Below, piece after piece: positions 2,117 through 37,725 of a stretch of DNA of 37,725 bases. The stretch covers positions 1 to 37,725 of the IMG/VR virus record IMGVR_UViG_3300035034_000608; one strand, given 5' to 3'. This stretch comes from a virus. A program made the position numbers and the translations under genes. Positions within the stretch are counted from its first letter, which is position 1. Every line of letters begins with the position of its first letter. The notes beneath the pieces are model-generated. The model made no database searches. It worked only from the letters and a program-made list of their open reading frames with translations, and had not been told where the DNA came from.

Positions 2117-3157
2117 ATGTCTAAAAAGCTTACTATAGAATATGTAAAAAGTTCTTTTGAGTCTGAAGGATATAAATTATTAGCTACTAGTTATACAAAC
2201 TCAGCTACGTTGTTAGAATATATTTGTCCTAAAGGGCATAAATATAAAATATCGTGGAATAAATGGCAAACTGGAAGAAGATGTTCTTATTGTAATCCTA
2301 ATGGTAGAGTAAGAAGAAGAACAATCGAGAGTATAAGGAAAGCTTTTGCTGACGAGGGGTATGTTTTATTAACCTCTGAATATATAAATTGTTCTGAAAA
2401 ATTAGATTATATATGTCCAAATGGTCATAAGTATAGTACTTCTTGGGATGCTTGGAGTTCTAAAAATAGTAGATGTGCTATATGTAGTAATAATGCCAAG
2501 TTAACTACTGATGATGTGTTTGAGTTACTAGCGTCAGAGGGTTATGTGCTATTAAATAAATATAAAAATGCTTTTTCTAATTTAAAAGTTAAATGCCCCA
2601 AAGGTCATATTAGAAATATTACTTGGGCAAATTGGAGTAACGGTAATAGGTGCTCAGTGTGCTCTGGTAAAGTTAGACACAATGTAGAGTATATAAAAGA
2701 TGAGTTTAGTAAAGTAGGATATACTTTACTGTCTACTGAATATAGAAATGGAAAACAGAAATTAAAATACATATGTGATAATGGACATACTAATTATGTG
2801 ACTTGGAATAATTTTAGTCAAGGTAATAGATGCCCTACATGTTATATTAATAATTATTTTGGATCAAACACTCCGAATTGGAGAGGTGGTATTACATTTG
2901 ACCCTTATTGTGAGGCGTGGAAGGATAAAGAATATAAACAAGGTATTATGGATCGTGATGGGAACGTGTGTCTAAATCCTGTTTGTTGGAATAGGGACAA
3001 GGTACTAACAATCCATCATATAGATTATAATAAAAAGAATTGTAAACCAAGTAATTTAATAACGGTATGTCGCTCTTGTAATTCAAGGGCTAATAAAGAT
3101 AGAGAGTGGCATAAGTCTTGGTATCAGGCTATATTAAATAATAGATATAAAATATAA
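2117..3157 (+). CDS. Free-standing HNH homing endonuclease with four zinc repeats
   Basis: The 346-residue protein has four tandem modules of about 55 residues. Each has a helix, then GYxLL, then CPxGH, then WxxW and a closing RCxxC, which reads as a treble-clef-like zinc unit resembling the DUF723/DUF4379 pattern. A linker with NWRGGI follows, then a C-terminal HNH nuclease with CLNPVC, IHHID, SNLI and CRSCN. Such enzymes cut intron-less or HEG-less alleles so that the gene is copied in by repair. It starts immediately after the endolysin stop with no good SD of its own, so translation is probably coupled. Close relatives lie at 23034, 26190 and, deleted, at 13983. Confidence 0.9.
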   Translation: MSKKLTIEYVKSSFESEGYKLLATSYTNSATLLEYICPKGHKYKISWNKWQTGRRCSYCNPNGRVRRRTIESIRKAFADEGYVLLTSEYINCSEKLDYICPNGHKYSTSWDAWSSKNSRCAICSNNAKLTTDDVFELLASEGYVLLNKYKNAFSNLKVKCPKGHIRNITWANWSNGNRCSVCSGKVRHNVEYIKDEFSKVGYTLLSTEYRNGKQKLKYICDNGHTNYVTWNNFSQGNRCPTCYINNYFGSNTPNWRGGITFDPYCEAWKDKEYKQGIMDRDGNVCLNPVCWNRDKVLTIHHIDYNKKNCKPSNLITVCRSCNSRANKDREWHKSWYQAILNNRYKI

Positions 3158-7790: not shown

Positions 7791-8300
7791 ATGGCTAGAC
7801 CAAAATTACATCCAGCACATAGAAAAGTTAGAGACCTTTTGCCAGCTAAAGATATTTTTGATGATGATGAGTTGAAATTGTACGGAGAGTATGTAGAGGT
7901 ATACTTAGCAGATTTTGATGCTGATGAGTTAATTTCTAGTGATCTAGATGACATTATGAGTTTGTCTATGAATAAAGTATTGTCGTTTAGACTATTAAAA
8001 GAAACTAAGGGTGACTCTGATAAACAACTTGATATGGCGGCTACTATAGAGAAGCTTGATAAACGAAATGAAAAACTTAAAGAAAACTTGTCTTCTAGGA
8101 GGCGAGATAGGATTAATCCTAATGAGCTTAAAGGCTTCTCCATTGTTGATTTAGCGGTAGCCTATGACCAGCAAGCAAAAGCAGCTCAAGCCAAACGTAT
8201 GGCTAAACTAAGAGCTGAAGAGAAGTTGATGAGGAAAAATAGAGAAAGTTATGATGGCAACAGGCTTGATATAGAGGAAACAAAAGGCGAAGAAGACTAA
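7791..8300 (+). CDS. Probable small terminase subunit
   Basis: This 169-residue protein directly precedes the large terminase with a 1-base TAATG overlap, the usual place for the small terminase, which recognises phage DNA and regulates the motor. It has a basic N-terminus (MARPKLHPAHRKVRDLLP), an acidic helical middle, a long charged helix at about residues 82-105 and a basic Ala/Lys/Arg helix at about 125-150. No helix-turn-helix can be assigned with certainty. The call rests mainly on position and composition. Confidence 0.5.
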   Translation: MARPKLHPAHRKVRDLLPAKDIFDDDELKLYGEYVEVYLADFDADELISSDLDDIMSLSMNKVLSFRLLKETKGDSDKQLDMAATIEKLDKRNEKLKENLSSRRRDRINPNELKGFSIVDLAVAYDQQAKAAQAKRMAKLRAEEKLMRKNRESYDGNRLDIEETKGEED

Positions 8301-11290
8301 TGGCTAAAAAAAGACAAAACATGGAAGCGTTGCTGGTACAAGGTAAGGAACTTATAGAGTTTTATAGAGCTCACCCTTGTACAGCCGCTTATGAGCTCCT
8401 AGGGGTAGATTTAGCACCTATTCAGCGATTGGTTTTTAGAGACATGTGGTTTAAGAACTACGTCATAGCTATTTGTGGACGTGGCGTGGGAAAAACTTTT
8501 ATGCTCGGTACTTTAGCTGCATTAAGTTGCTTGTTGTATCCAGGTTATAGGGTAGGTCTAATTGGCCCAGTATTTAGACAATCGTTAATAAAATCAGACA
8601 CACTTGCTACGTTTTGGACAAATGAAGGATTAAATACAGGTACAGAGGATTTTTATAATAAAGTAATTCCAGGAAAAACAAGAGTACAGTCAAATTTTAA
8701 TCATAATACAGTAGTCAGTAAATGGACAGATAAAGATAAAGCATGTAAGTATATAAAAACTACAAAAGGATTTGAATTGTCTGGTACTATAGATCATGCC
8801 GTTGTGTGTTTAAACGATGATTTAGATACTGAATTTAAAGACTTACAGGATATAAAAGATGAATATATAGCAATAAAAACAGGATTTAATTATTTTGGTA
8901 ATGATAACTCGATGCCTGAATTTGAATTTGAACATGATTGGAGAACTAAAAATTGTTTAATACCTAAAGAATTAACACCTTCTTTATCTTATTGGATGGG
9001 TCTTTTACTAGGTGATGGCTGTGTTTCTGTTAGTAAAAATAAAAGAAAACAGCGTGTAGACTTTGTAAGTGAAGACCAGGATTTATTAGACTCTTTTGAG
9101 AATAATCTAAGAAGATATTTTTGTGTAGATAAAGAAGAAAAGATAGATAGAAGGAATAGAAGGAATGATACTTGGGAAATTCAATACTTTTGTAAGCAAC
9201 TAGCCCAGTATTTATTAGAGTGTGGTTTTACTAAAACAACAGCTCTGGATAAAAAGATTCCTAGTATTTTAAAAAAAGCTTCACGAGATAACTTAATAGC
9301 TTGTTTACAGGGTTTATATGACACAGATGGGTGTTTTTATGTGCAAAAAAATAAAGGTTCTGAAATTGCCTTTAGTACTTCTTCTAAACAACTAGCTAAA
9401 GAAGTGCAGGCTATACTACTAAATTTAGGTATAGTGTCTAACTTTGGTATAAGTAAAAAGGCATGTATAAGACAATTATCGCAAGGAAATAAACCGTCTA
9501 AATGTGCAGAAGCCTATAAAGTTAGGATTACAGGACAAACTTTTATCAAAAGATTCAATGATACTGTTGGATTTAGATGCTTAAGAAAGAAAGAAAAGCT
9601 TAATGCTTATATAGATAACCATTTTAATCAAGAAGAAAGTTTAGCTAGGGCTATTGGTCTTACAAATAAATTAATAAAGGATAATTACAATAAAGCCAAA
9701 AAATTATATGAACAAGGGTTATACTTTGTTAAAATTAAAGAGGTTGATTACTTCTTTTCAGAAACAATAGATATAGAAGTAAAAAATGAACACTGTTATT
9801 GGGCTAACGGGTTTATTAATCACAATTCAAAAATGATATTTGCTGAAGTAGAGAAACTATATGATCAATCTTCAATTCTTAGAGAAGCTTCTGCAAAGAA
9901 ACCAACTCGTGGTTCAGACACAGCTTATTTAAAATTTAAGTCGGTTGCTGGTAAAACTCCATCATATATTGAGGGACTACCACTAGGAGATGGTAGTAAA
10001 ATTCGTGGATCACGTTTCTATCTAATTCTTGTGGATGAGTTAGCGCAAGTTCCAGATCAAACTTTGGATATGGTAGTAAGACCAATGGGAGCAACCTCTT
10101 TGGCACCGATGGAAAGAGTTCGTAGACTAGAGGAACAGACTCGTTTGATTAATGCTGGTCTTGCTGCTGCTGATGATTTTGCTGAGGAAAAAGTTAACAA
10201 GATGGTAATGACTTCCTCAGGGTATTATAAATTTAATCATATGTGGCGACGTATGAGGGACCATTGGAAGATGGTGGCGGAAGCTGAAGCTCAAGGTAAG
10301 GATTGTGATTATGCAGTGTGGCAAGTACCTTATTGGGACTTACCTGAGGGGTTCTTGGATAATAATAATATTGCTGAAGCTAAACGTATTATGTCTAGAC
10401 ATGAGTATAGTATGGAATATGAAGCTGCCATGGTTTCAGATTCAGAGGGATTTTTTAAGGCATCCCTATTAGATGATTGTACTTTAGGGAATGATTTTAC
10501 TTTACAGTTCAATGGAGCGCCTAATAAACAGTATATAATGGGTATTGACCCTAATCAGGGGGGAAGCGCCAGTTGTGGTGTGGTTATTATTGAAATAGGT
10601 AAACCTAATAAAATAGTTAATGTAATAGAACTTAAAAAGCAGACCACACAAGGACTTACAAGATCAGTACAACAACTTTGTAATCAATATAATATCATTA
10701 GAATATTCATGGATAAAGGCGGAGGTGGAAAGGCAGTATGTGATTTATTAGAGGAGGGTTACGGAGAAACCGAACCTATTATTGATAGAGGAAACCAAGA
10801 TCATATACATTTAGAAGGAAGACATATACTAGATATGGTTAATTTTAATCCTACTTGGATAGCTGATGCCAATTTTACTACAAAAGCTATGTTTGAGGAT
10901 AAGAGTCTTTTATTTCCAGATAATCCATCTAATTCTACTAACGATTTATTAGCTAGGGCTTATATAAATATAATAACGCTTAAATCACAGTTATTAAATA
11001 TAGTAGTTACTCAAACTTCTACTGGTATATTGCATTTCGATACTCCTACTAAGCATATGAATAAGGATTTATATTCTGCACTTATATTAGGAGCCCATGG
11101 AGCAAGACAGGTTGAGAGGGAACTCGAAGAGGGAGATGGTCCTATTCTTCATAGTGTAAGTGGCTTAGTGCGTAGTAGAGTAGGGACTAGTTTTGATTAT
11201 TTAGGATCTCAAGGCACTTCAAGTTTTCAAGCACCCCCACTATTGGAATACGGACTAGGCCACGCGGTATTAAAGAAAAGAATTAAATAA
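8300..11290 (+). CDS. terL: Large terminase subunit precursor, interrupted by intein
   Basis: The 996-residue precursor yields a 581-residue terminase after removal of a 415-residue intein (residues 95-509). The terminase powers DNA translocation into the prohead and cuts the concatemer. ATPase motifs are Walker A GRGVGKT (60-66), Walker B LILVDE (575-580) and coupling motif MTSSG (637-641). Nuclease (RNase H-fold) motifs include D750 in MGIDPNQGG, D805 in IFMDKGGGG and a final Asp in MNKDLYSALILGAHG. Without the intein the sequence reads GPVFRQ-SKMIFAEVEK, a normal run for the segment after Walker A. The start overlaps the upstream stop as TAATG. Confidence 0.95.
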   Translation: MAKKRQNMEALLVQGKELIEFYRAHPCTAAYELLGVDLAPIQRLVFRDMWFKNYVIAICGRGVGKTFMLGTLAALSCLLYPGYRVGLIGPVFRQSLIKSDTLATFWTNEGLNTGTEDFYNKVIPGKTRVQSNFNHNTVVSKWTDKDKACKYIKTTKGFELSGTIDHAVVCLNDDLDTEFKDLQDIKDEYIAIKTGFNYFGNDNSMPEFEFEHDWRTKNCLIPKELTPSLSYWMGLLLGDGCVSVSKNKRKQRVDFVSEDQDLLDSFENNLRRYFCVDKEEKIDRRNRRNDTWEIQYFCKQLAQYLLECGFTKTTALDKKIPSILKKASRDNLIACLQGLYDTDGCFYVQKNKGSEIAFSTSSKQLAKEVQAILLNLGIVSNFGISKKACIRQLSQGNKPSKCAEAYKVRITGQTFIKRFNDTVGFRCLRKKEKLNAYIDNHFNQEESLARAIGLTNKLIKDNYNKAKKLYEQGLYFVKIKEVDYFFSETIDIEVKNEHCYWANGFINHNSKMIFAEVEKLYDQSSILREASAKKPTRGSDTAYLKFKSVAGKTPSYIEGLPLGDGSKIRGSRFYLILVDELAQVPDQTLDMVVRPMGATSLAPMERVRRLEEQTRLINAGLAAADDFAEEKVNKMVMTSSGYYKFNHMWRRMRDHWKMVAEAEAQGKDCDYAVWQVPYWDLPEGFLDNNNIAEAKRIMSRHEYSMEYEAAMVSDSEGFFKASLLDDCTLGNDFTLQFNGAPNKQYIMGIDPNQGGSASCGVVIIEIGKPNKIVNVIELKKQTTQGLTRSVQQLCNQYNIIRIFMDKGGGGKAVCDLLEEGYGETEPIIDRGNQDHIHLEGRHILDMVNFNPTWIADANFTTKAMFEDKSLLFPDNPSNSTNDLLARAYINIITLKSQLLNIVVTQTSTGILHFDTPTKHMNKDLYSALILGAHGARQVERELEEGDGPILHSVSGLVRSRVGTSFDYLGSQGTSSFQAPPLLEYGLGHAVLKKRIK
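8582..9826 (+). mobile_element. Intein with LAGLIDADG homing endonuclease in terminase
   Basis: The intein lies in frame between Q94 and S510 of the precursor. Block A reads SLIKSDTLA, so the first residue is Ser rather than the common Cys. Block B is GTIDH with H166. Two LAGLIDADG motifs are present, MGLLLGDGCV (about 233-242) and LQGLYDTDGCF (336-346). The C-terminal blocks read HCYWANGFINHN followed by Ser +1. Both splicing ends and the endonuclease look intact, so it should splice and be mobile. It is inserted shortly after the Walker A motif, at a highly conserved terminase site. Confidence 0.93.
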
Positions 11291-13990: not shown

Positions 13991-14168
13991 GAGACTTACA
14001 TATGCATTTGTTAAAGAGTCATTTGATTCAGAAGATTATACTTTACTTAGTAAAGAGTATGTCAATAATGGTTATAAATTAGATTGTATTTGTCAGAAGG
14101 GGCATAAAGGTTGGCATCGGGTGGTGCTTAAGAATAGGTATAATATAAAAGCGGTGTCATATGTATAA
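13983..14168 (+). pseudogene. Internally deleted HNH homing gene remnant
   Basis: The 61-residue frame starts like the zinc-repeat HNH genes (MSKRLTYAFVKESFDSE) and runs through half of the first repeat to CQKGHK. It then jumps to the C-terminal end of that family (WHRVVLKNRYNIK), matching the WHK-x-WYQxILxxRYNI ends of the intact copies. All the other repeats and the whole HNH domain are missing. The fusion is in frame and lies near 14100-14115. It starts inside the portal stop region, as an intact copy would, so a homing gene once occupied this site. No nuclease activity is possible. Confidence 0.85.
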
Positions 14169-14814
14169 ATATGATTCAAATATAAAAGTAGACGGTATTG
14201 TTTATAAAGTAACTAATATGATAAATAATAAAGCTTATATAGGACAAACTATCCATTCTTTGAATAAAAGAAAAATTAAACATTTAAATCTGGCTACAAG
14301 ATCAAATATAAAAACTCATTTTCATAGGGCAATTAATAAATACGGGGAAACTAATTTTGTTTGGCAAATTCTATGTTCTTGTAATAGAAAGGCTGAGTTA
14401 GACAAGAAAGAGGTGTACTACATCGAGTATTATGATACATATAAAAACGGGTATAATATGACTTTAGGTGGTGAAGGTACTGTAGGAAGAATATGTAAGG
14501 AAAGTACTAAATGTAAAATTTCCAAAGCTAAAACTGGTAAAAAAATGTCTGAAGAATTTAAGAAAAAATTATCAACTATGCGTCGTGGGGTTAAAAAATC
14601 AAAAGCTCATGTGGCTAATGTAGTAGCATCAAAAAGTAAGTATTGGGATGTAGTGTATCCTAACGGTACTCATAAGGTAATAAAAAACTTAAGTGCTTTT
14701 TGTAGAGAGAATAATTTAAATGATTCAGGAATGAGATTGGTAGCACTTTATGGTAGAAATCACCACAGAGGATTTAAATGCCAAAGAATAGATAATATAA
14801 AAGCAAGTCAGTAA
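14161..14814 (+). CDS. GIY-YIG homing endonuclease
   Basis: The 217-residue protein begins with a GIY-YIG nuclease domain: VYKVTNMINNKAYIGQT, a later catalytic Arg-containing helix, and the YYIEYYDTYKNGYNMT end with its conserved Glu and Asn. A NUMOD3-type segment (ESTKCKISKAKTGKKMSEE) follows. The C-terminal region has the IENR-like pattern of homing endonucleases (LSAFCRENNLN, RNHHRGFKC). It overlaps the HNH remnant by 8 bases, so this site after the portal gene has taken two successive homing genes. Confidence 0.9.
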   Translation: MYKYDSNIKVDGIVYKVTNMINNKAYIGQTIHSLNKRKIKHLNLATRSNIKTHFHRAINKYGETNFVWQILCSCNRKAELDKKEVYYIEYYDTYKNGYNMTLGGEGTVGRICKESTKCKISKAKTGKKMSEEFKKKLSTMRRGVKKSKAHVANVVASKSKYWDVVYPNGTHKVIKNLSAFCRENNLNDSGMRLVALYGRNHHRGFKCQRIDNIKASQ

Positions 14815-19317: not shown

Positions 19318-20127
19318 ATGAAGATTAAGTATGGTAATGATGGACTTGAAAATTTAGATAGTTTTTCTTATATATATAAAAGAGATGTGTTTCGAAGAAA
19401 ACGTTTGTATTATAAATTTATAAATTCCTGTAGTGTGTGTGGTGAGTCATTTTTTATGAGGGCTACTTATCCTACAAAAATATGTAGTGCTAATTGTGCT
19501 CATCAATCAGAAACAATAAAAAAGAAAATTTCAAAAAGTATGTCTGGTGTAAAGAAGTCAAAACAAGAGTGTAAGGCTATTTCAAAAAGAATGTCAAAAG
19601 GCGGTGTGATTAAAAAAAACATTCCATTATTTGATACTTATGCTCATCAAATTTTTCCTATAGAAGAGGTAAAGAATGATAATGGTATTCTTTTAGTAAA
19701 ATGCTCATTATGTGGTGAATGGTTTGTAGCTAAAAGAACTTCTGTGGAGGCTCGTGCACAATATATAAAAGGTAATATAGATAGAGAATCAAAACTTTAT
19801 TGTTCTGATGGGTGTAGATCATCTTGTAGTATATTTAATAAACATAAATATCCAGTAGGATTTAATGTAAGAAAAAGTAGGAATATAATTGAATATACAA
19901 GTTATGAATTACAAATATGGTCAAAAGAGGTACTTAAAAGAGCTAAGTACGTATGTGAATATTGTGGTAAGCAAGCAACAGTCGCACATCATATACAACC
20001 AAAAAAACTAGAATCGTTTTATGCTTTGGACCCAGACAATGGAATAGCCTGTTGCAGTATCTGTCATTACAAATTTGGGCATAGGGATAATTGCACAACA
20101 ATTAATATAGCAAATTTTGTATGTTAA
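19318..20127 (+). CDS. HNH homing endonuclease with zinc fingers
   Basis: The 269-residue protein has an N-terminal zinc finger (CSVCGE ... CSANC, 38-60) and a NUMOD3-like basic segment (about 64-95). A second zinc finger follows (CSLCGE ... CSDGC, 129-166). The C-terminal HNH domain has CEYCG (213-217), AHH (223-225), N241 and CSICH (246-250). It is not closely related to the zinc-repeat HNH family elsewhere in the window. It follows the capsid gene and is followed by a second nuclease gene, so this site has also gathered two homing genes. Codon use is A/T-rich. Confidence 0.87.
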   Translation: MKIKYGNDGLENLDSFSYIYKRDVFRRKRLYYKFINSCSVCGESFFMRATYPTKICSANCAHQSETIKKKISKSMSGVKKSKQECKAISKRMSKGGVIKKNIPLFDTYAHQIFPIEEVKNDNGILLVKCSLCGEWFVAKRTSVEARAQYIKGNIDRESKLYCSDGCRSSCSIFNKHKYPVGFNVRKSRNIIEYTSYELQIWSKEVLKRAKYVCEYCGKQATVAHHIQPKKLESFYALDPDNGIACCSICHYKFGHRDNCTTINIANFVC

Positions 20128-23033: not shown

Positions 23034-23882
23034 ATGGGTAAAAAATTAACAATAGAATACGTAAAAGATTCTTTTGAAAAAGAAGGTTATGTTTTGCTTA
23101 GTGAAGTGTATATCAATAATAAACATAAGTTAGACTATAGTTGTCCTAAAGGACATAAGCACAGCATTGCTTGGAATGATTGGCAACAAATCCATAGATG
23201 CCCTACTTGTGTAGGAAATACTACTCTTGTTATTGAATATGTAAGAACTTGTTTTAATAATGCTAATTATATACTTGTTTCTAAAGTATATAAAAACGCT
23301 TACACTAAGTTAGATTATATTTGTTCTAAGGGGCATAAGCATTCTATTACTTGGACTGATTGGCAGCAAGGACACAGATGTCCTTATTGCGTAGGACAAG
23401 GTAAGCCAACTCTAAGCACAGTTAAAAAATCTTTTGAAAAAGAAGGGTATACACTTATATCTGATAAATATAAACGTAGTAAAGATAAGTTAGGTTACAC
23501 GTGTAAGGAAGGGCACACACATTTAATTACTTGGGCTGATTGGCAGCAAGGATACAGATGCCCTACTTGTTCACATATTAAGAATGCAGGCACTGGTCAT
23601 TATAATTGGAAAGGTGGTATCTCGTTCGAACCTTATTGTGAAGTTTGGAAAGACAAAGAATACAAACAAAGTATAAGAGATCGTGACAATAATAAATGCT
23701 TAAATCCGTATTGCAATTCTAAAAATCCAAATGATCTAACTATTCATCATATAGATTATAATAAAAAAAATTGCAAACCAAGTAATCTAATAACAATTTG
23801 CAGATCGTGCAATTCTATGGCTAATAAAAATAGAACGTGGCACAAAGCTTGGTATAGAGCAATAATTAAAAATAGATATTAA
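23034..23882 (+). CDS. Free-standing HNH homing endonuclease with three zinc repeats
   Basis: The 282-residue protein belongs to the same family as the genes at 2117 and 26190 but has three zinc modules (closing motifs HRCPTC, HRCPYC, YRCPTC). A NYNWKGGI-type linker follows, then the HNH domain (CLNPYC, IHHIDYNKKNC, SNLITICRSCN) and the shared ending WHKAWYRAIIKNRY. The start ATGGGTAAAAAATTAAC lies 3 bases after the connector gene stop with no SD. Translational coupling to the host gene is likely. Confidence 0.9.
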   Translation: MGKKLTIEYVKDSFEKEGYVLLSEVYINNKHKLDYSCPKGHKHSIAWNDWQQIHRCPTCVGNTTLVIEYVRTCFNNANYILVSKVYKNAYTKLDYICSKGHKHSITWTDWQQGHRCPYCVGQGKPTLSTVKKSFEKEGYTLISDKYKRSKDKLGYTCKEGHTHLITWADWQQGYRCPTCSHIKNAGTGHYNWKGGISFEPYCEVWKDKEYKQSIRDRDNNKCLNPYCNSKNPNDLTIHHIDYNKKNCKPSNLITICRSCNSMANKNRTWHKAWYRAIIKNRY

Positions 23883-26189: not shown

Positions 26190-27251
26190 ATGCCTTTAAA
26201 ATTAACAATAGAAAGAGTTAGAAAAGAGTTTCAGGAAATTAAGTATACTTTAGTGTCAACCGTATATATTAATTCTAGACAATCTTTTAAATATGTTTGC
26301 GACAAAGGGCACGAGGGTAGTATGCGTATAGATCATTTAAGAAAGGGTGTAAGATGTTCTAAATGTGTAGGTAATAGGAAATTATCTATCGATTTTGTGA
26401 GAGCCTCTTTTAATGATGCTGGCTATGTACTTTTAACTGATAAATATATAAATTCTAAAAGTAAATTAAAGTATATTTGTCCTAAAGGGCATTTAGGTAG
26501 TGTTATTTGGAATAATTGGTTACTTGGTAATAGGTGTATGGAGTGCTCTGGTAAAAAGAGGGCATCATTTAAAAAAATAAAAGCTTCTTTTGAGTTAGAA
26601 GGTTATACTTTATTAAGTGATAAATATATTAATAGAAATAGTAAACTTATTTCTATATGCCCAAAAGGGCATGTTTACAAAGTAAGTTGGGAAAATTGGA
26701 ATCGTAATAGCTCTAGGTGTTCAAAGTGTTATATGGCTAAAATAATGCCCACAATATATGAAATAAGAAAATCCTTTGAAAGTGAGGAATATATTTTATT
26801 GAGTAATGAGTATAAAAATGCACGTACTAAATTAAAGTATAAATGTTCTAAAGGGCATTATAACTCTATAAATTGGAAAGATTGGTCGTCTGGACATAGA
26901 TGCCCTGATTGCTATTTTATAAGTATATCAGGGGATAAAAACTATAATTGGAAGGGTGGTATCACCTTTGAGCCGTACTGTGAAGCCTGGAAGGATAAAG
27001 AATACAAACAAGACATAAGAAATCGTGATGGAAATAAATGTTTAAATCCGTACTGTAATTCTAAAAATCCAAAGGATTTAACAATTCATCACATTGATTA
27101 TGATAAAAAGAACTGTAACCCAAGTAATTTAATAACCATCTGTCGTTCTTGTAATAGTAAAGCCAATAAAGATAGAACTTGGCATAAGAATTGGTATCAA
27201 TCAATTTTGTATAAAAGATATAATATAAAGGAAAGGTTATCGGTTGTATAG
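26190..27251 (+). CDS. Free-standing HNH homing endonuclease with four zinc repeats
   Basis: The 353-residue protein is the third intact member of the zinc-repeat HNH family. Four modules end in VRCSKC, NRCMEC, SRCSKC and HRCPDC; a NYNWKGGI linker and the HNH domain (CLNPYC, IHHIDYDKKNC, CRSCN) follow. It ends WYQSILYKRYNIK, the end preserved in the deleted copy at 13983. It lies between a neck gene and the intron-bearing tail gene. It has a weak SD (AAAGG), about 10 bases from the ATG. Confidence 0.9.
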   Translation: MPLKLTIERVRKEFQEIKYTLVSTVYINSRQSFKYVCDKGHEGSMRIDHLRKGVRCSKCVGNRKLSIDFVRASFNDAGYVLLTDKYINSKSKLKYICPKGHLGSVIWNNWLLGNRCMECSGKKRASFKKIKASFELEGYTLLSDKYINRNSKLISICPKGHVYKVSWENWNRNSSRCSKCYMAKIMPTIYEIRKSFESEEYILLSNEYKNARTKLKYKCSKGHYNSINWKDWSSGHRCPDCYFISISGDKNYNWKGGITFEPYCEAWKDKEYKQDIRNRDGNKCLNPYCNSKNPKDLTIHHIDYDKKNCNPSNLITICRSCNSKANKDRTWHKNWYQSILYKRYNIKERLSVV

Positions 27252-27453: not shown

Positions 27454-28519
27454 AAACTAAATGTGTCCCTTATTTGGTAACAAGTAAGAGAAAAAATTTC
27501 ACGGTATGCGGGAAACTCTAGTTAAGCTTTAGGTACTAACCTGAATTGGTAGTAATAATCTTAAAGATATAGACAATCCGCAGGAAAGGATTTATAATGA
27601 AAAGAAATAAAGTAAGTAAAGAAAAACTTCAAGAATTAATAGATTGTCATAAATCTGTGGCCAAAGTTGCTACAGAGTTATCTATACCCTATAGTACTAT
27701 ATATTCGTGGTATAAATCTTATGATATAGAACTTTTACCTAGTTGTATGACTGTTTATGAAGAGTTAAGATCTGTAGAAATATCAGATGTTCATAGATCT
27801 GTTATATTAGGCTCTATTTTAGGAGACGGCTCTTTGCTAAAGAATAGGAAATCTAAAAATGCTAGATTGCAAATTGGTCATTGTACTAAACAATTAGATT
27901 ACTTAAAATGGAAAAAAGATTTATTATCTCCATTTGTTAAAAAAATAACTTTAGCAGAAAAACCAGGACCTAAAATTATTAATGGTAAAAATTCATACTC
28001 TTCAGGTTACTATTTTATTAACACAATTGCTCATCCAGATATAACTGAGTACTTTAATAAGTTTTATGTTAAAGGTAAAAAAAGAGTAATTACTGATGTA
28101 ATAGAAGATTTAGATTTATTAGCTCTTTGTATTTGGTTAGCTGATGATGGAAGTTTTTCTTTTCATGGTAGTAAAACAGCCTTAAGAGGTTCAATTGCTA
28201 CATGTAGTTTTACTTTAGAAGAAATAGAGGTCTTAATAGTAGCTTTACGTAAATTTTTTAAAGGTACTATAAGTATTGATACTTATAATAGTACTATAAG
28301 ACTAGGTAAAACTAAATACTTACATGATTTACTGGATATGGTAACATATATATTACCAGAATGTATACATTATAAATTTGTTCCCCAACGACTGCGTGTG
28401 AAACCCCTTTTAAAAAGGGTGAAGGTACAGTCTGAACTTGGCGGAGACGCCAAGAGGGAGAGTCGAAGAACTTTCCCCGCCTAACAGGTAAAGCTGAGGT
28501 CACTAAAAGTAACAGAATG
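27454..28519 (+). mobile_element. Group I intron with LAGLIDADG homing gene
   Basis: The 1066-base intron follows the group I rules. P1 pairs the exon end GGACAT (27448-27453) with GTGTCC (27463-27468), giving the required U-G pair at the 5' splice site. P10 pairs AAAT (27459-27462) with exon 2 ATTT. P2 is CTTATTTG-GTAA-CAAGTAAG (27469-27488). P3 pairs TGCGG (27507-27511) with CCGCA (27578-27582). P7 pairs TAGAC (27570-27574) with GTCTG (28430-28434). P9 is a 7-pair stem with a GAGA loop (28437-28454). The last base is G28519. It should self-splice from the tail gene transcript. Confidence 0.93.
27597..28484 (+). CDS. Intron-encoded LAGLIDADG homing endonuclease
   Basis: The 295-residue protein has an N-terminal helix-turn-helix (residues about 17-42, VAKVATELSIPYSTIYSWYK) and two LAGLIDADG motifs, VILGSILGDGSL (69-80) and LLALCIWLADDGSF (174-187). 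It would cut intron-less alleles of the tail gene. The SD is AGGAAAGGA. The frame lies between the P3/P7 strands and the P9 part of the intron core. Its C-terminal codons run through the P7 3' strand and P9 hairpin, so RNA folding and coding overlap. Confidence 0.9.
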   Translation: MKRNKVSKEKLQELIDCHKSVAKVATELSIPYSTIYSWYKSYDIELLPSCMTVYEELRSVEISDVHRSVILGSILGDGSLLKNRKSKNARLQIGHCTKQLDYLKWKKDLLSPFVKKITLAEKPGPKIINGKNSYSSGYYFINTIAHPDITEYFNKFYVKGKKRVITDVIEDLDLLALCIWLADDGSFSFHGSKTALRGSIATCSFTLEEIEVLIVALRKFFKGTISIDTYNSTIRLGKTKYLHDLLDMVTYILPECIHYKFVPQRLRVKPLLKRVKVQSELGGDAKRESRRTFPA

Positions 28520-30329: not shown

Positions 30330-31100
30330 ATGAGTAACGAAAATTTAAGTGATCGAAGAAGTTTTTTAGGTACGGATGAGACAGAGTATTTTATTGGTAC
30401 TCCAAGTGCTGATGCTATTAGAAAGGCTGATTGGCAGTATAGTAAAACATACACTAATTGTTTAGTGGAGGGTATTACTACTAGTGCAGAGATGTTGGAT
30501 ATTCTTAAGAGGCGCGGGGTGATTGGAGAAGCTTTTGAAAACAGAGTAGAGGAGTTAACTACTATTCTGAATGAGTATATTCTTAGACTACGCGAAGCTA
30601 GCAATAATGAAGAAAAAGCTGAGTTGGCAATTCAGATTTCTAAAGCACGAGATAATCTTTTTCAGTGGAATCAGCGTCTTAGTGGTCCTATGAGTAACAC
30701 TTGTGAGCAGATGGCGGATGACGCTAGACTTGAGGCACTAACATCTCGTATGATTGAGTATGATGACGGTACCAAGGTTTGGCCAGATTATGATGCTTTT
30801 TTGTCGTCAAAAGATCAGGCACTGTCATTGAAATCAAGGTATGAAGTTATGTTATTTTTGCAGGGATATGAGTCTGACTTTCTTGATAATACACCAGAGG
30901 CAGTAGCAATGCAAGAAGTACAAACAGATATTATTAATCAGGCTTCTGTAGAGGCTGAAAAAGCAAGACTAGTTGATTTGGAGAAAGATGTAAATAAGCC
31001 TGGTAAGATTGAAACCCCTAAATCAACAGATGATTCCTCTATTAAAGAAGGTGTTAAAAAGGCACCAGTTAAAAAATCCACGAGTACTAAGAAAAAATAA
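30330..31100 (+). CDS. Probable tail assembly protein
   Basis: The 256-residue protein is helical and acidic, with a Lys/Ser/Thr-rich C-terminal tail ending in KKK before TAA. It lies between the tail-tube gene and the giant tail gene, where tail assembly chaperones are normally encoded. The next gene is in the same reading frame with only one stop codon and four codons between, so readthrough would give a fused product. I recognise no family, so the chaperone role is inferred from location. Confidence 0.6.
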   Translation: MSNENLSDRRSFLGTDETEYFIGTPSADAIRKADWQYSKTYTNCLVEGITTSAEMLDILKRRGVIGEAFENRVEELTTILNEYILRLREASNNEEKAELAIQISKARDNLFQWNQRLSGPMSNTCEQMADDARLEALTSRMIEYDDGTKVWPDYDAFLSSKDQALSLKSRYEVMLFLQGYESDFLDNTPEAVAMQEVQTDIINQASVEAEKARLVDLEKDVNKPGKIETPKSTDDSSIKEGVKKAPVKKSTSTKKK

Positions 31101-31112
31101 AGGCACAAAAGA

Positions 31113-32117
31113 ATGATAACAGATGCTGAAGTAGATCAATACTTAGTGAGAATTTCTTCTGGTAAGTTAATAACTCAAATAAATAAAGAGTTTATAATCT
31201 TTAAGTATCCCACTAATGATGTAAAACTATACGCAGATGCTATCTATACAATGGCATATCAGGAGGCTCTCGATGAGGGTCTCCTGAATGATATAGACTT
31301 AGAGAAATTGATAAGAGATCGTAATATTTTTACAGCTGAAGATGAAAAAAAATTATCTAAATTAGAGTCACAGTTGGATGCCCAAAAAATTTTATTAGGG
31401 AAGACTACTAGAGTTAGGGCTAATCAAGATCGTATAAAGAAAATTATACAAAAGATCAAAGAAGAAATGTTTGTAATATCTAGCAAAAAATCTTCTAGGA
31501 TGATGATGTCTGCTGAAGTTAGAGCTAATGAGGAACGTACTTTATATTTATGTTGGGATAGTACCTATGACCATAGGTACAATAAATACTGGAGTAAATT
31601 AAAGTACTTTAAAGAGACTACAAATATATCTTTTAGAGAAGAAGTTTTAAATACTTTTTTAAGGTTTTATTATGGTATACCTACCAATATAATTCGTTAT
31701 ATAGCTAGACATAGTTTATGGCGTATTAGGTATGTAAATAGTCAAAAGGTTTCAGAAAAGTTGTTCGGAAAACCTTCTTCTGATTACACTACTGATATGT
31801 TAAGCTTAGCATATTGGTCTAATTACTACGATAGTATTTATCAAATGATGCCAGAGGATCGACCAAGTGACTTAGTTATTGAGGATGATGATTCATTAGA
31901 TGCTTATATGAAATCATTCTATGAGGAAAGGACACGCGAGGACGCTTCACGGCGAAGCAAACATAAGACACCTGGTAAGTTATCTGCATTTGATCAAGAA
32001 GAGGTTATTATTACTGCTTCTAACTCTCTGTATCGTGATATAACGTATGATACACCTAGAGAGGCAAAAAAATTAAAAGATAGAGCTGACGTGAAAAAAA
32101 GGACGAAACGCGGATAG
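31113..32117 (+). CDS. Probable tail assembly protein, second
   Basis: The 334-residue protein is basic and helical, with a coiled-coil segment at about 70-120 and aromatic-rich middle (YLCWDSTYDHRYNKYW). An acidic stretch (VIEDDDSLDAYMKSFYEE) and a disordered basic end (RADVKKRTKRG) follow. The SD is only AAAGG. Its place directly before the giant gene fits the second of a tail assembly chaperone pair. No catalytic motif is seen. Confidence 0.6.
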   Translation: MITDAEVDQYLVRISSGKLITQINKEFIIFKYPTNDVKLYADAIYTMAYQEALDEGLLNDIDLEKLIRDRNIFTAEDEKKLSKLESQLDAQKILLGKTTRVRANQDRIKKIIQKIKEEMFVISSKKSSRMMMSAEVRANEERTLYLCWDSTYDHRYNKYWSKLKYFKETTNISFREEVLNTFLRFYYGIPTNIIRYIARHSLWRIRYVNSQKVSEKLFGKPSSDYTTDMLSLAYWSNYYDSIYQMMPEDRPSDLVIEDDDSLDAYMKSFYEERTREDASRRSKHKTPGKLSAFDQEEVIITASNSLYRDITYDTPREAKKLKDRADVKKRTKRG

Positions 32118-32197
32118 GAATTAAGTAACTTGTGTAGAATTAAAGGGTATTTAATTATACCATAGTTTCGTATAAATTAAATTTTGGAGGCACTATC

Positions 32198-35100
32198 TTG
32201 GGCGAAAAAAACGTCAATATAAATATTAAATCTACTGGTACCACTTCAGGGGCAAATGAACAGTCAGCCCCAAATTCCAGCTTAAAGCAATTATACACTG
32301 AGTTTAATAAGGGGATGTCAAGCACGCAGGACGGTATCGTTAATGCGGTAGCATCTGCTATTAAAAAAGAACTCCCTACTATCCTTAGTAAGGTTATAAC
32401 TAGTAATGCGTCTGGAGATAGTGGTGGTGTAACCAAGACTGAATTAGCCAATATGTTACAACGCCTTGTTGTGGACATCACTAAGCAGTCTGTTAAAGAT
32501 GTAGCTGCTAAAGTACAAAAGTCTCCAGAGTCAGGCCTGGTAGATGTTGCTTCCGCATTGAAAATATCTAGTAAGCAAAGAGAAATCGCATATAAAAACT
32601 TTGCAGATGAGTTATCTAAAAACACTAAGGGTGTAGTAACAATAGATCCCTCAGTTTTTAAAGGTATTGAGAATGCATTGAATTCTAATTTAAAAGCAGC
32701 TATGCCTACTGATATGATAGCTTCTCTCAAAGATATTTCTGCTATTTTAAAAAGATTAGAGTCAAGTTTTACTAAAATAGCTTCTGCTGGTAAGGCTGTA
32801 AATGAGCAGCGTAAAAGTGGTGGTGGTTTTGATATAACCGAGTTTAAAACGTATTTAAGTTTGATGGCTCAAATGGGTACTGCTTTTAAAGAGTTAATTG
32901 CTGATATTACTTTGGTGCGTAGTGAAGTTAAGAAGCTTCCTAAAGAGTTTAATGATGGGGCATCAGCTTTTAAAGAAAGTGTGACAAGTTTTAGGGCGTC
33001 CGCTGTTAAGAAGAAGACTGCGGTGGTAAAAAAAGCCACTGAAGATCCTTTAAAATTAGCTCAAGTAATAACTTCAGAAATATCTAAAGTAATAAACAAA
33101 ATCCCTCAAGCAAAAGAGTCTGAGGTGGGAAAATCTTTAGATGCTATAGCTAAAAAGTTAGAGAGTGTTCCTGATTTTATTGTTGTTATGAAGCAGCTAA
33201 CTAAGCTAGTAGAAGAATTGAAGGGTAGTCCTTCTGGGTCTATAGATGCTGATGCTTTAAAGGGGAATTTAGTTAAGTTAACTGACGCTGTATCTATGAT
33301 ACCTAAAGAATTAGTACCTAAAGGTGTTACCAATAATAAAGAGGTTAAAGATTGGAATGCTAAATTAGAACTTGTTGTAGAAGGTGCTGGAGAAGTAGCT
33401 ACTTTTATTAAAGATATAAAGTCATTAGCCGGTATTGAGGTTCCCTTATCTGTAGTTACAGATAAAAGTCTTAAAGGTGCAAAAAAAGATTTAGACGACT
33501 TAGGTAGGAGTAAGAATGTCGATTTCACTGCTTCTGTGTCTAAAAATACTATAATAAGTGATCTAGAAAAGCTTAGAAAGAAGGCTGACTCTACACCGTT
33601 TAATATTGAACTAGTTACTGATTCTCAAAAACTTATAACTCAACTACAGTCTGATTTTAAACAACAATTTAATGTCGCAGTATCCGCTTCAAGTACTACA
33701 GGAAATAAGCCCGATGAAAAAATATTTTCTGACCTTAACCAGTTTTTATCAGTACTTAAAGATACTTTAAGATCTAATCTTTACGTTGAACCTAAAAACC
33801 AGTCATCACAGGGCCTTTACGACGCTATTATGAAAGTAGTAACACAGATTGCTGCTTCTAAAGACGACCCAAATAAACTTAAAGCTGTGATTACTAGTGG
33901 TATAGACACTAAAACTGCTGGTAACTTATTGTCTAAGGAAATATTACCTCGTGATATTACTAGGTTAATAGCCTCTCTTGGTGACAAGTTATCTGATTTA
34001 ACAGACGCTATAAATAGCCAACAAACATCTAATCCTTTTTCTGGAACTACAGGTTCTACTTCTCAAAATAGACTACCAAGTACAAATGAGCAAGATAAAC
34101 TTAAACAAATTGAAGTAAGACAGCGTATGAGGGAGCAGTCTGAGAAGTTTAGACTTGGTAAGGATATTAAAACTAGTCAAAAATCGGCTCCTGCAGACTA
34201 CAAGTATAAAACATCAAAAGAAACTTTATACGGGTATAAATCAGATGTAATTACCCCAGGAAAAGATTATGAATTGCCCACACCTAAAACCCGTATTGAT
34301 ACAGGAGAGAAAGCAAGACAGATCATTAAAGAGAATGTTAATACTACTGCTAAATCTTTAATGGATCTAAGGAATTTTATGATTAAGCAGGTTGAAGAAG
34401 GCTTGGCATTGCGAGGTCCTGTTGAACAAACTTATGATAAAAAAACTAAAGTCATCACTCAGTCACAAAAGTGGAAAATTCTTAGGGGGGATGACGCTCA
34501 AGATCCGTCAGAATATTTTAAGCTTGCTTCTGGTATTAATAAGAAAGTAGCAGGTAAACAATGGACTTTTCAAATTGCGGATGTTGGGGCTATCGCTAAA
34601 GAAATTGAGAAGATGAGGCGGGATAATAAAGATTTTACTCCTGTTGATAGAACTCAATCACCTGAGGCACTTAAAAGCTTATTTAAAGATACAGTTAAGA
34701 ATGACCTTTTAAATAAGAATAGGAGTAATCTTGGTGAATCCGTAGGTACTTGGTTAAAGCGTGTACCCACTGATGATATAAAGTCTTGGAAGTTTTCTCA
34801 ACCAGACTCTGCTGAAAATTTAGTTAGAATTAAAAATAAAACTAATGAAGCTGGTCCAGGCGTTCCTAAAAAAATGAGTGATATGCTTAATAGTATGAAT
34901 ATTGGTAAGTTAGAGAGTATTTACCAGGAAACTTTAGGGGAGATGGAAGCCAATAAACGGCTTAATATTGGAGTAGCTGGATCGTCAAAAGGTAGTAAAA
35001 GTAGGAGTGCTCTTACCAGGACTTTAGCTGTACCCGCAGCACGTCTTACTGAGACAGGTGCTCAAATATTTGAAACATCTACTGGTAGTCAACGAGTTAT

Positions 35101-37725
35101 ACCTAAATTTGCCGAATATAAAACTGGTTTTGAAAATCTATTTAATCAGCTTAAAAGTTTTGGTACTAATATGCCAGAAAAGTACACTGAAAGAATACAA
35201 AAAGCAGGTATACGCCCTGATAGAAAAGAGTATGTTGAGTCTAATAAACTAGCTCAGGAGATGCTTACAGATCTCGCTTCTGCAAGTGACGCAAATAAAG
35301 GTAGATTAGTGAGAACATATAAAAAAGGGGCTATTGTTAGATCAGCGGAGTTAGCACGTACGGAGCAAGGTGACCCTGAAACATTTAAAGTAGAAGCTAT
35401 TAGAAATATAGATCAAATGGGTGAAAGTTTAAAGGATGGTTCAATTTCAGTAGGGCAATTCATACAAGCTATGGATGGTGCTGGAGTGTCTGCTCTTGAT
35501 GTGGTTAAACGTATGGAAACAGTTGATTTTAAAAATATATACCAAGTATTTGAAAAAGTACTATCCAATTACGCTCCAGGAGAGTCTCCAATTGATAAAC
35601 TTACAAAAAATCCAAATCATGATAAAACAGTTCGCGAGTATGAGTCTTATCTAAGTAAGCTAGTGGGTACAATACCTATAGCAGACCCCTCTAGACCAAG
35701 AAGATATGCACATCAAGAAAAAATAGTCAATATGATGACTATGACCTCGCCGGTTTATGAGAAAGGTGCAGCTGGGTTAGATCCTGATCAATCTAAAAGT
35801 TATATACGTGATTTAAATATGGTATTAAAAAACTATATGAATGAATCTAAGGTATTATCTACTACTGAGTATGCTAGAAATATACCACAAGATGTTACAA
35901 CTTTATCTACCCTTGGTGTTCCTGAGTCTTCCGCCTCTACGTTAGATGAATACAGATCCTCTTTTAAGGAAGACAGTAAATATCTTAGTAGTTTAAAGGC
36001 TACTAATTTGAAAATGCACTCTGATGTTTTACCTGAGATGTCACCTTTTGGACAACAATTTCAGCAGGCAGGCAGAAATATTGCCAGTACTACTAATGCT
36101 ATGGCTTACAGACAAAAAGGTGTGCCTGGTACTGAGTTTCCAGGATTAAGGTCTACTAGGGAGAACGAGCAGATTGCTGGCGGCAGGTACGGGGATCAAG
36201 GTTATGGTTTCAATGTAATAGCTGAGTTAAGAAGTACTGCAAATACATTTGAAGACCAGATGGTTATTTCAGGTAAATTAGCAGAAGTACTTACCAGTGT
36301 TACTAAAACAATCGTGCAGCCTGACGCTTTAGGTAGATTGGATTTAATAACAAGTGAAGGTAATTTACGAGATCTACCGAGTAATGCAATCAGTGTGGAA
36401 GATATTAGATCTAGAATTAAAGGGGAAGGCGGAAAGAAAGGGCAGGGTAATGTACTTACTGATACAGATCCGTTAGCGCAAATAGATGAACTTAATAGAG
36501 TATTTCAAAATGTACTAGGTGTGCCACAAAAGTATAGAGGTAGGGCTGATAAAACACTAATAACAGATATACAGAAGGCTGTTACCGTAGCTAGGGGACA
36601 GGATATAAACGTACAGACCGCTAAGATAGCTGAAACCTTTTTTAACTACTATGGTAGAAAATTTACTACCAGGTATGGTATGAAGGGAGTGGCTGTATCT
36701 CCTTCTAAAGGGTTTAAAGATTCGTCTGTATTAGAAGCCGCCTATAAGACTAAAAATATAAAAGTACTAAGTGATTCTGAGAGAGAAAAAGCAGGATTAG
36801 GTACTGCTATTCTTCCAAAAAGTATGGGTTCGTTACTTTCTGAGGTTATACAAAAAAATAGAGCAGTTATTCTAAGAAGTGACCCGGACTCTGAAACAGG
36901 GACCAAGTACACAGGTAAGGACGTTGATTTATTAAAGGATCAGTTAAAAGCTAGTGGTAGTAAATTTATGATGAGTATGTTTACTGATAAATCAGCAGGG
37001 GTGGTTTCTGAAAAAGATGCAATGGTACAATCGGATCTTTTTGAGGATGCCAAGAAAATGGTTAATTCTTTTGGGGGTTCGTTAGAACAAGGTTTATCTG
37101 GTATAGCTGGTGTAAAAATGTTACATCGTAAGGAAGTAGAAGGAGCTAAACAGTTTGAAGAAAAACCTATAGATATTAGAATTAACTCTAGTAATGCTGG
37201 TAAACGTGGTCTTCAAACAGAAAGCCTTGAGATGATGATGAATAACGTAATTGGATCTGGCTGGCAAGGGTCTACAACATTAAATACTAAGTTTGATACT
37301 AATACTTATAAAAGCATGCTTGGTACTATGGAAGAAGGTAAAGAGTTATTTCCTAGTCTAGGTGAATATAGTAAAGTTTTGGGTTTTTCAGGCACTGGAA
37401 AGTCACAAGGGTCCATACGTGATTCTTTGTTAAAGGATATGACAGTCAGTAGGGGTTTGATATCTGGTACTGAGGCAAAGGGACTTAGAGATAAAAAGAC
37501 TAAGGGGGGCGTACTTTCAGAAGATGAAACCGAGTCTTTATCTAAACGAGATAAAGCGGTTACAGAAGCAAACGCAGCTGCAGCTTTAGAAGCTAAAAGT
37601 AGTTATTACTCACGTATTATAGATGAGTTTGGTAAAGCTAGGAAAGGTTTTGTTGGTCCTAAGTTTGTAGAGATAGTTGAAGATCCAAGTGCTAATCCAG
37701 CGTGGAGCAAGTCTGACATAGAGAA
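32198..37725 (+). CDS. Giant tail-locus protein with RNA polymerase beta-like domain (partial)
   Basis: The frame is open for 1842 codons to the window end. The start is TTG at 32198, with GGAGG (32186-32190) 7 bases upstream. Residues 1-about 620 are Lys/Ser/Asp-rich helices, like a tape-measure or virion-packaged protein. The C-terminal part matches multisubunit RNA polymerase beta in order. MAYRQKGVP (1302-1310) resembles NMQRQAVP. NVIAEL then NTFEDQMVIS (1349-1358) resembles GYNFEDAILIS. K1488 and K1496 lie in K-x3-RYGMKGV, like the catalytic K-x3-RHGNKGV. GKRGLQTESLE (1668-1678) resembles GGQRFGEME. Spacing (135 residues from FED to the first Lys, 174 to the last motif) fits bacterial beta. 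Confidence 0.8.
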   Translation, partial: MGEKNVNINIKSTGTTSGANEQSAPNSSLKQLYTEFNKGMSSTQDGIVNAVASAIKKELPTILSKVITSNASGDSGGVTKTELANMLQRLVVDITKQSVKDVAAKVQKSPESGLVDVASALKISSKQREIAYKNFADELSKNTKGVVTIDPSVFKGIENALNSNLKAAMPTDMIASLKDISAILKRLESSFTKIASAGKAVNEQRKSGGGFDITEFKTYLSLMAQMGTAFKELIADITLVRSEVKKLPKEFNDGASAFKESVTSFRASAVKKKTAVVKKATEDPLKLAQVITSEISKVINKIPQAKESEVGKSLDAIAKKLESVPDFIVVMKQLTKLVEELKGSPSGSIDADALKGNLVKLTDAVSMIPKELVPKGVTNNKEVKDWNAKLELVVEGAGEVATFIKDIKSLAGIEVPLSVVTDKSLKGAKKDLDDLGRSKNVDFTASVSKNTIISDLEKLRKKADSTPFNIELVTDSQKLITQLQSDFKQQFNVAVSASSTTGNKPDEKIFSDLNQFLSVLKDTLRSNLYVEPKNQSSQGLYDAIMKVVTQIAASKDDPNKLKAVITSGIDTKTAGNLLSKEILPRDITRLIASLGDKLSDLTDAINSQQTSNPFSGTTGSTSQNRLPSTNEQDKLKQIEVRQRMREQSEKFRLGKDIKTSQKSAPADYKYKTSKETLYGYKSDVITPGKDYELPTPKTRIDTGEKARQIIKENVNTTAKSLMDLRNFMIKQVEEGLALRGPVEQTYDKKTKVITQSQKWKILRGDDAQDPSEYFKLASGINKKVAGKQWTFQIADVGAIAKEIEKMRRDNKDFTPVDRTQSPEALKSLFKDTVKNDLLNKNRSNLGESVGTWLKRVPTDDIKSWKFSQPDSAENLVRIKNKTNEAGPGVPKKMSDMLNSMNIGKLESIYQETLGEMEANKRLNIGVAGSSKGSKSRSALTRTLAVPAARLTETGAQIFETSTGSQRVIPKFAEYKTGFENLFNQLKSFGTNMPEKYTERIQKAGIRPDRKEYVESNKLAQEMLTDLASASDANKGRLVRTYKKGAIVRSAELARTEQGDPETFKVEAIRNIDQMGESLKDGSISVGQFIQAMDGAGVSALDVVKRMETVDFKNIYQVFEKVLSNYAPGESPIDKLTKNPNHDKTVREYESYLSKLVGTIPIADPSRPRRYAHQEKIVNMMTMTSPVYEKGAAGLDPDQSKSYIRDLNMVLKNYMNESKVLSTTEYARNIPQDVTTLSTLGVPESSASTLDEYRSSFKEDSKYLSSLKATNLKMHSDVLPEMSPFGQQFQQAGRNIASTTNAMAYRQKGVPGTEFPGLRSTRENEQIAGGRYGDQGYGFNVIAELRSTANTFEDQMVISGKLAEVLTSVTKTIVQPDALGRLDLITSEGNLRDLPSNAISVEDIRSRIKGEGGKKGQGNVLTDTDPLAQIDELNRVFQNVLGVPQKYRGRADKTLITDIQKAVTVARGQDINVQTAKIAETFFNYYGRKFTTRYGMKGVAVSPSKGFKDSSVLEAAYKTKNIKVLSDSEREKAGLGTAILPKSMGSLLSEVIQKNRAVILRSDPDSETGTKYTGKDVDLLKDQLKASGSKFMMSMFTDKSAGVVSEKDAMVQSDLFEDAKKMVNSFGGSLEQGLSGIAGVKMLHRKEVEGAKQFEEKPIDIRINSSNAGKRGLQTESLEMMMNNVIGSGWQGSTTLNTKFDTNTYKSMLGTMEEGKELFPSLGEYSKVLGFSGTGKSQGSIRDSLLKDMTVSRGLISGTEAKGLRDKKTKGGVLSEDETESLSKRDKAVTEANAAAALEAKSSYYSRIIDEFGKARKGFVGPKFVEIVEDPSANPAWSKSDIE

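Follow-up and report, generated by a model that had tools for sequence, protein, structure and literature searches.

The virus record IMGVR_UViG_3300035034_000608, whose 37,725 bases were analyzed whole and are called the window here, ends inside an open reading frame (ORF) that encodes a giant protein as far as its residue 1,842. We conclude, with a probability of about 0.88, that this ORF, from a tailed phage with a large genome, encodes a virion RNA polymerase (RNAP) fused N-terminally to the giant tail tape measure protein (TMP), and that the polymerase is ejected with the TMP and transcribes the early genes. An earlier note on this DNA had proposed a divergent phage RNAP among the tail genes, from four strings likened to motifs of the RNAP beta subunit; an indirect profile link and the fold matches of a relative's model now support that proposal. 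Beyond that note, we found a beta' motif in the same chain and identified the protein as the tape measure protein. From these findings we infer enzymatic activity, presence in the virion, ejection, and a division of labor between early and late genes.

Conserved beta and beta' motifs in one chain

The four strings all lie, as the earlier note had placed them, in the single frame that starts at a TTG codon at position 32198 and runs open past the window end, and its numbering of two lysines as K1488 and K1496 was correct. The features of this frame are listed here.

32198..37725, plus strand: N-terminal 1,842 residues of the predicted RNAP-TMP protein; TTG start, frame continuing past the window
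32186..32190, plus strand: Shine-Dalgarno-like GGAGG, 7 nucleotides 5' of the TTG start, read directly from the sequence
36011..37303, plus strand: predicted RNAP beta-type catalytic region, the stretch taken for alignments A4, A5 and A7; from alignments, conservation and model
36044..36079, plus strand: PFGQQFQQAGRN element; from conservation
36242..36271, plus strand: NTFEDQMVIS, FED motif, residues 1349-1358; from conservation
36659..36691, plus strand: KFTTRYGMKGV, residues 1488-1498, with candidate catalytic lysines K1488 and K1496; from conservation
37169..37231, plus strand: IDIRINSSNAGKRGLQTESLE, by eye the equivalent of a 21-residue Escherichia coli beta element; from conservation and position

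Relatives of the protein are carried by at least 47 distinct viral contigs beside the window (45 plus two more), most of the family's contigs being fragments and some being near-identical to one another; a further scan of viral contigs gave 45 loci, none of them new. A near-identical contig (L002/G001; 237,910 bp) extends the frame to residue 3,307 and then ends. In the relative L004/G003 (36% identity over 3,287 alignment columns), the frame runs for 7,939 codons without interruption, and the open frames of four other relatives comprise 7,477, 7,652, 7,751, and 7,820 codons. One relative (L040, QNDS01000020.1), found as 1 of 162 pattern matches, lies in a Candidatus Fermentibacteria metagenome-assembled genome; its frame, open at both ends, spans 4,633 amino acids. 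This placement may hint at a Candidatus Fermentibacteria host or may be a binning error. Conservation was assessed in 32 nonredundant sequences, after removal of L086, L100, L101, L118, L119, and eight rows that shared more than 88% identity with another row. Compared with the window's phage, the members of this set were 36 to 59% identical in the beta region and 31 to 55% in the beta' region.

Two of the four strings held up as beta motifs. In the beta-type region (residues ~1,270 to 1,700), the ED pair of the FED motif and the block RK-x3-R-x-G-x-K-G, which contains K1488 and K1496, were invariant in all 32 sequences. Across 45 loci, the lysine block was found in 44 (the exception, L118, ends before the motif), and the string FEDQ in 42 (all except L101, L102, and L126, with the aligned ED kept in L102 and L126 too). 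[FY]ED followed 60 to 350 residues on by K...R.G.KG arose in only 1 of 20,000 shuffles of the window protein. The 431 residues of the beta region hold 28 invariant columns, including the ED pair and the R, K, R, G, K, and G of the lysine block.

The other two equations fared less well. MAYRQKGVP (residues 1302-1310, nucleotides 36101-36127), which the note had equated with NMQRQAVP, is unconserved in the family. The conserved element is PFGQQFQQAGRN, just 5' of it: GRN was present in 20 of 20 sequences of alignment A5, and in alignment A7 (32 sequences) the P was invariant and the F and R were kept in at least 90%. We take this element to resemble the PF...RN of archaeal and eukaryotic Rpb2. 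KRGLQTESLE (residues 1669-1678, nucleotides 37202-37231), equated with QRFGEME, is conserved, but judged by eye, IDIRINSSNAG and the KRGLQTESLE that follows it appear to match the 21-residue E. coli beta element better. The E. coli string of that element was taken from its alignment to a sister RNAP, the printed alignments lacking the window family there.

The beta' motif DFDGD lies ~1,000 residues C-terminal of the beta region in the same chain, outside the window, and was seen in the near-identical contig. DxDGD was found in 41 of 45 loci; three of the others (L086, L118, and L119) are truncated, and L100 has DxDGD behind in-frame TAG codons. In a separate locus set, the same frame carried LD[FY]DGD in every one of 44 loci, and D146, D148, and D150 of the beta' alignment were invariant in 32 of 32 sequences. 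The beta' region (441 residues) holds 17 invariant columns, including R.P..G..S..P, PG.P, and LD.DGD....H, and is followed by a further conserved element, QKGxDVKxAG. In 41 of 45 loci, the beta and beta' motifs lie in a single frame, unlike the split barrels of phiKZ/AR9-type RNAPs. In L100, a reading of the locus as split was rejected, the three ORFs lying in one frame broken by two TAG codons (at 9831 and 10848, the only stops between 4311 and the end of the locus). Homology continues on either side of these codons, and TAG recoding in this phage is possible.

These columns bear on whether the domain is still an enzyme. The TMP might have captured an RNAP domain that today serves only as tail structure or channel, and a domain this large within a TMP could be structural. 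However, the small set of columns invariant in 32 sequences of 31 to 59% identity to the window's phage includes both lysines and the DxDGD aspartates, as selection for catalysis predicts, and we regard a dead polymerase as improbable.

Fusion to the tape measure protein

The identity of the remainder of the protein was read from relatives with longer frames. In the G003 protein, the part after the RNAP matched PF10145 (E 3.5e-31) and PHROG 4211, tail length tape measure protein (E 9.6e-88), and its C-terminal part matched further TMP families. Of 44 loci, 39 matched the TMP segment of G003 in the DxDGD frame, with the RNAP first; the remaining five are cut off by the contig edge 110 to 1,205 residues past DxDGD. 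Between RNAP and TMP, a PD-(D/E)XK-like segment (GTIDVL...VIDIKT) was recognized by eye in 33 of 44 loci. Since 8 of the 11 loci without it extend well past that point, this segment is not universal. The C-terminal part of the G003 protein also carries a metallopeptidase-like motif, HELSH, seen in G003 only among the loci looked at. In L060 (16538-16542), overlapping stop and start codons (TAATG) split the TMP into two ORFs inside the tape-measure part.

A second, free RNAP gene links the family to known polymerases

The profile comparison with RNAP beta that the earlier note had suggested gave no direct match to Pfam Rpb2_6 and an indirect link, through a second RNAP-like gene of contig G001. 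A search with Rpb2_6 and Rpb1_2, which found a gene of this kind in one of eight contigs, detected there a free-standing ORF that holds both domains and, counted from its ATG, is 1,178 residues long. It scored 24.9 bits against Rpb2_6 (cut-off, 23.4; a 972-amino-acid piece scored 22.3 bits, just under the cut-off) and E 9e-6 against Rpb1_2, below that family's cut-off. It also matched PHROG 3295, "RNA polymerase beta subunit" (E 1.6e-6), and RpoB chains in the PDB (E 5.6e-4). A homologue in the 228-kb contig G012 has 1,088 residues and is 43% identical to the G001 gene. Together, the two free RNAPs matched E. coli RpoB at E 3.8e-5, with KLTNTHGNKGVI on KMAGRHGNKGVI.

The giant proteins in turn matched these free RNAPs. 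The core profile aligned with the two-sequence profile of the free genes over 537 columns (97.4%, E 1.3e-11), three column-shuffles giving E 0.27 to 0.78. The beta region profile alone gave E 1.3e-7 (ten shuffles, 0.32 to 0.94), and the beta' region profile gave E 0.0011 at DFDGD (shuffles, 0.085 or worse). In the alignment to the single G001 free sequence, FED fell on FED and GRKFTTRYGMKGV on ATKLTNTHGNKGV. In a direct search, the G001 free RNAP also hit the giant ORFs of G006 (E 9.2e-6, 30% identity) and, weakly, of G009 (E 0.011). Searched against viral contigs, the free RNAP found its own contig only, and against phage records it gave weak partial matches, the best at E 7e-4.

Other searches with the family itself gave marginal results. 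Pfam Rpb1_2 was hit by six of nine members (best E 0.0017), and one hit with a printed place (E 0.077, below the cut-off) sits at DFDGD. With hhalign, nine-sequence profiles compared with single known sequences gave, apart from RpoC, E values of at least 0.046, and shuffles gave at least 0.11. Searching phage records with tblastn returned no match in one search and three weak ones in another (best E 0.4, a virion protein of Bacillus phage BpSp). In G017, a second DYDGD was rejected as an RNAP gene, lying outside any ORF of at least 150 amino acids. Some 3 kb past the G001 free RNAP gene is a helicase-like ORF of 833 amino acids (L016:5461-7962), seemingly with an intein by eye; in group 1 jumbo phages, a Rad25-like helicase accompanies RNAP genes (PMC7824862).

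The fusion might instead be cleaved after translation, leaving an active RNAP that works in the infected cell and is never packaged. The HELSH motif of G003 and the presence of the TMP in two ORFs in the L060 lineage speak for this possibility. The L060 split, however, falls after the tape-measure start and leaves the RNAP joined to that start, and a separate RNAP gene is already present in two contigs. Furthermore, the full-length fusion of Thermus phage P23-45, gp96, was found in virions (Chaban et al. 2024, Nat Commun, PMC10770324). We hold a nonvirion role for the giant protein to be a shade less probable even than a dead polymerase, and favor a polymerase that stays attached to the TMP in the particle.

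Predicted fold

The shortest relative, L112 (1,200 residues), was modeled with AlphaFold2 without templates, using the 32-sequence alignment (model m4ed916d89417). The mean predicted local distance difference test score (pLDDT) was 72.3, and the predicted template modeling score (pTM) was 0.58. Aligned with VIA-align, residues 1 to 526 of the model matched RNAPs in all 50 matches listed, with Z of 15.2 to 16.1 and root mean square deviations of 2.8 to 4.2 over 200 to 254 residues. From the chain letters, we take the matched chains to be second-largest RNAP subunits. The fold check that the earlier note had called for came out in favor of its proposal: the template-free model aligns with RPB2/RpoB chains at Z ~16, which supports an RNAP fold for the beta half.

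Compared with predicted viral proteins, the model gave two matches below 0.001, the better at E 8.9e-5 over 1,255 columns with a template modeling (TM) score of 0.22. This best match is annotated "Minor tail protein" of Siphoviridae sp. ctnpt50 (BFVD A0A8S5SD80_1), perhaps a third lineage of fusions between tail proteins and RNAPs, to judge from the models.

The absence of a direct RNAP database match for the window protein would suit a coiled-coil tail protein that resembles RNAPs by chance or by convergence of motifs, an idea already disfavored that we give next to no weight in view of motifs invariant in 32 relatives, the profile match at E 1.3e-11 to a recognizable RNAP, and the fold matches.

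Weighing a proposed virion polymerase

Several results weigh against reading the ORF as a virion RNAP fused to the TMP. The window protein had no RNAP match in Pfam, PHROGs, or PDB sequences. Rpb2_6 matched none of nine family members, so the protein is not classed as a cellular-type beta subunit. Beta-region members and profiles searched against PDB sequences gave unrelated matches only, mostly coiled-coil proteins (best E 0.0049). The family profiles did not match E. coli RpoB (E 0.24) and matched RpoC only at DFDGD (E 0.002 to 0.012). They also showed no profile similarity to the 1,577-amino-acid part of the RNAP of crAss-like phage phi14:2, which we assume from protein length to be gp077 of KC821624 (E 0.28 to 0.5). 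Against gp96 there was no clear match: the beta' profile gave E 0.044, aligned at DFDGD, and the core profile E 0.29. Free RNAP genes are known from two contigs only (one of 10 by search, one more among 13 through the DFDGD pattern), and neither search found one in the 234-kb contig G004. In the L112 model, pLDDT was below 50 beside FED (81-83 and 93-101) and beside the lysine block (177-199 and 216-219), and an earlier nine-sequence AlphaFold2 model was poor, with pLDDT below 50 around the barrels. Finally, the 50 matches listed by Foldseek against the PDB, all of them RNAP entries, had low TM-scores and E values of 1.3e-3 to 1.8e-2, none at or below 1e-3. Their chain letters, which presumably denote mostly the largest RNAP subunit, hint weakly that the beta' half of the model folds like that subunit.

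We nevertheless favor the virion polymerase, and propose the following mechanism by analogy with P23-45 gp96. The chain runs from the beta-type region through a connector to the beta'-type region with its metal-binding DFDGD, then through QKGxDVKxAG and often a PD-(D/E)XK-like segment to the tape-measure domain. As a part of the TMP, the RNAP would be built into the tail and, at infection, ejected along with the TMP. The entering DNA would be its template, so that the first genes would be transcribed by the tail-borne RNAP, and the free single-chain RNAP would take over for later genes.

A broader scenario, to which we give somewhat less than even odds, is that TMP-tethered RNAPs are old and widespread and couple ejection to first transcription. 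The RNAP lineage of this family would then have duplicated within phages into tail-borne and free copies, separately from or far before P23-45. The family may or may not share a TMP-fused ancestor with gp96, the best profile match between the two standing at E 0.044.

Genomic surroundings of the giant ORF

Terminase, portal, and head genes are located earlier in the window, and two genes stand immediately before the giant ORF.

31113..32117, plus strand: gene of 334 amino acids directly upstream of the giant ORF; counterpart (338 amino acids) at the same place in L004, by-eye comparison
30330..31100, plus strand: gene of 256 amino acids upstream of the giant ORF; counterpart (257 amino acids) at the same place in L004, by-eye comparison

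Given the terminase, portal, and head genes and the two look-alikes in L004, the giant ORF fits a late structural region. By position alone, the two upstream genes are candidate tail assembly chaperones. Within the large terminase gene (8300-11290) lies an intein whose endonuclease domains are of the LAGLIDADG type (intein splicing, E 8.5e-9; LAGLIDADG_3, E 2.6e-23). Genes resembling homing endonucleases of the HNH, GIY-YIG, or LAGLIDADG families number six in the window, at 2117-3157, 14161-14814, 19318-20127, 23034-23882, 26190-27251, and 27597-28484.

Comparison with known RNA polymerases

Among the matches listed in a literature search of open-license papers, we found no description of the present family, and PMC10770324 was the sole report of a TMP-RNAP fusion. 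The family is a second, diverse one of such fusions, with proteins larger by half than gp96 and with beta-type motifs that, unlike those of gp96, can be read by eye. The plan of two RNAPs is present in two of its three largest contigs. The window protein's lack of any Pfam, PHROG, or PDB-sequence match to an RNAP shows why searches overlook such enzymes. The family also offers a natural data set for polymerase passage and docking at the tail tube, for the coupling of ejection to transcription, and for the kinship of single-chain phage RNAPs to cellular beta and beta'.

With cellular beta/beta' and Rpb2/Rpb1, the giant protein has FED, K-x3-RxGxKG, and DFDGD in common, and the beta half of the L112 model fits them at Z ~16. 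It differs from them in lacking a direct Rpb2_6 match, in holding the counterparts of both subunits in one chain, and in being joined to a tape measure. The phi14:2 RNAP is likewise a large, single-chain, two-barrel RNAP, with DFDID where the present family has DFDGD. The crAss-like RNAPs have been placed in one group with virion RNAPs fused to large proteins (PMC10770324). The RNAPs of phiKZ/AR9-type jumbo phages are likewise phage-encoded two-barrel enzymes with virion and nonvirion versions, spread over several polypeptides (PMC7824862); here both barrels would lie in one TMP-fused chain.

The closest parallel is Thermus phage P23-45, in which gp96 is the TMP-fused virion RNAP and gp64 the nonvirion RNAP. 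Such fusions were reported for P23-45, P74-26, G20c, and TSP4 and termed a previously unsuspected association. Fragments of the RNAP part of gp96 are reported to extend RNA, gp96 binds pre-early genes 5 minutes postinfection, and gp96 is described as having no detectable similarity to known RNAPs outside DFDGD (PMC10770324). The gp96 RNAP is flat and lacks a clamp, a shape that the present family may or may not share. The free RNAPs of the present family resemble gp96 around that motif (E 8.4e-5). The two systems differ in size: gp96 has 5,002 amino acids in an 86-kb genome, compared with ~7,500 to 7,900 codons and contigs of up to 238 kb here. The conserved core here (~1,500 to 1,700 residues) is about twice as long as the crystallized gp96 RNAP fragment (327-1124), a size that bears on how it would fit in or pass through the tail tube. 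Both systems have a giant TMP whose N-terminal part holds a single-chain two-barrel RNAP, here a predicted one, with DFDGD, and in both the genome also encodes another single-chain RNAP that stands free (here in G001 and G012). Within the TMP, a metallopeptidase is reported for P23-45 (PMC10770324), and G003 has the metallopeptidase-like HELSH motif.

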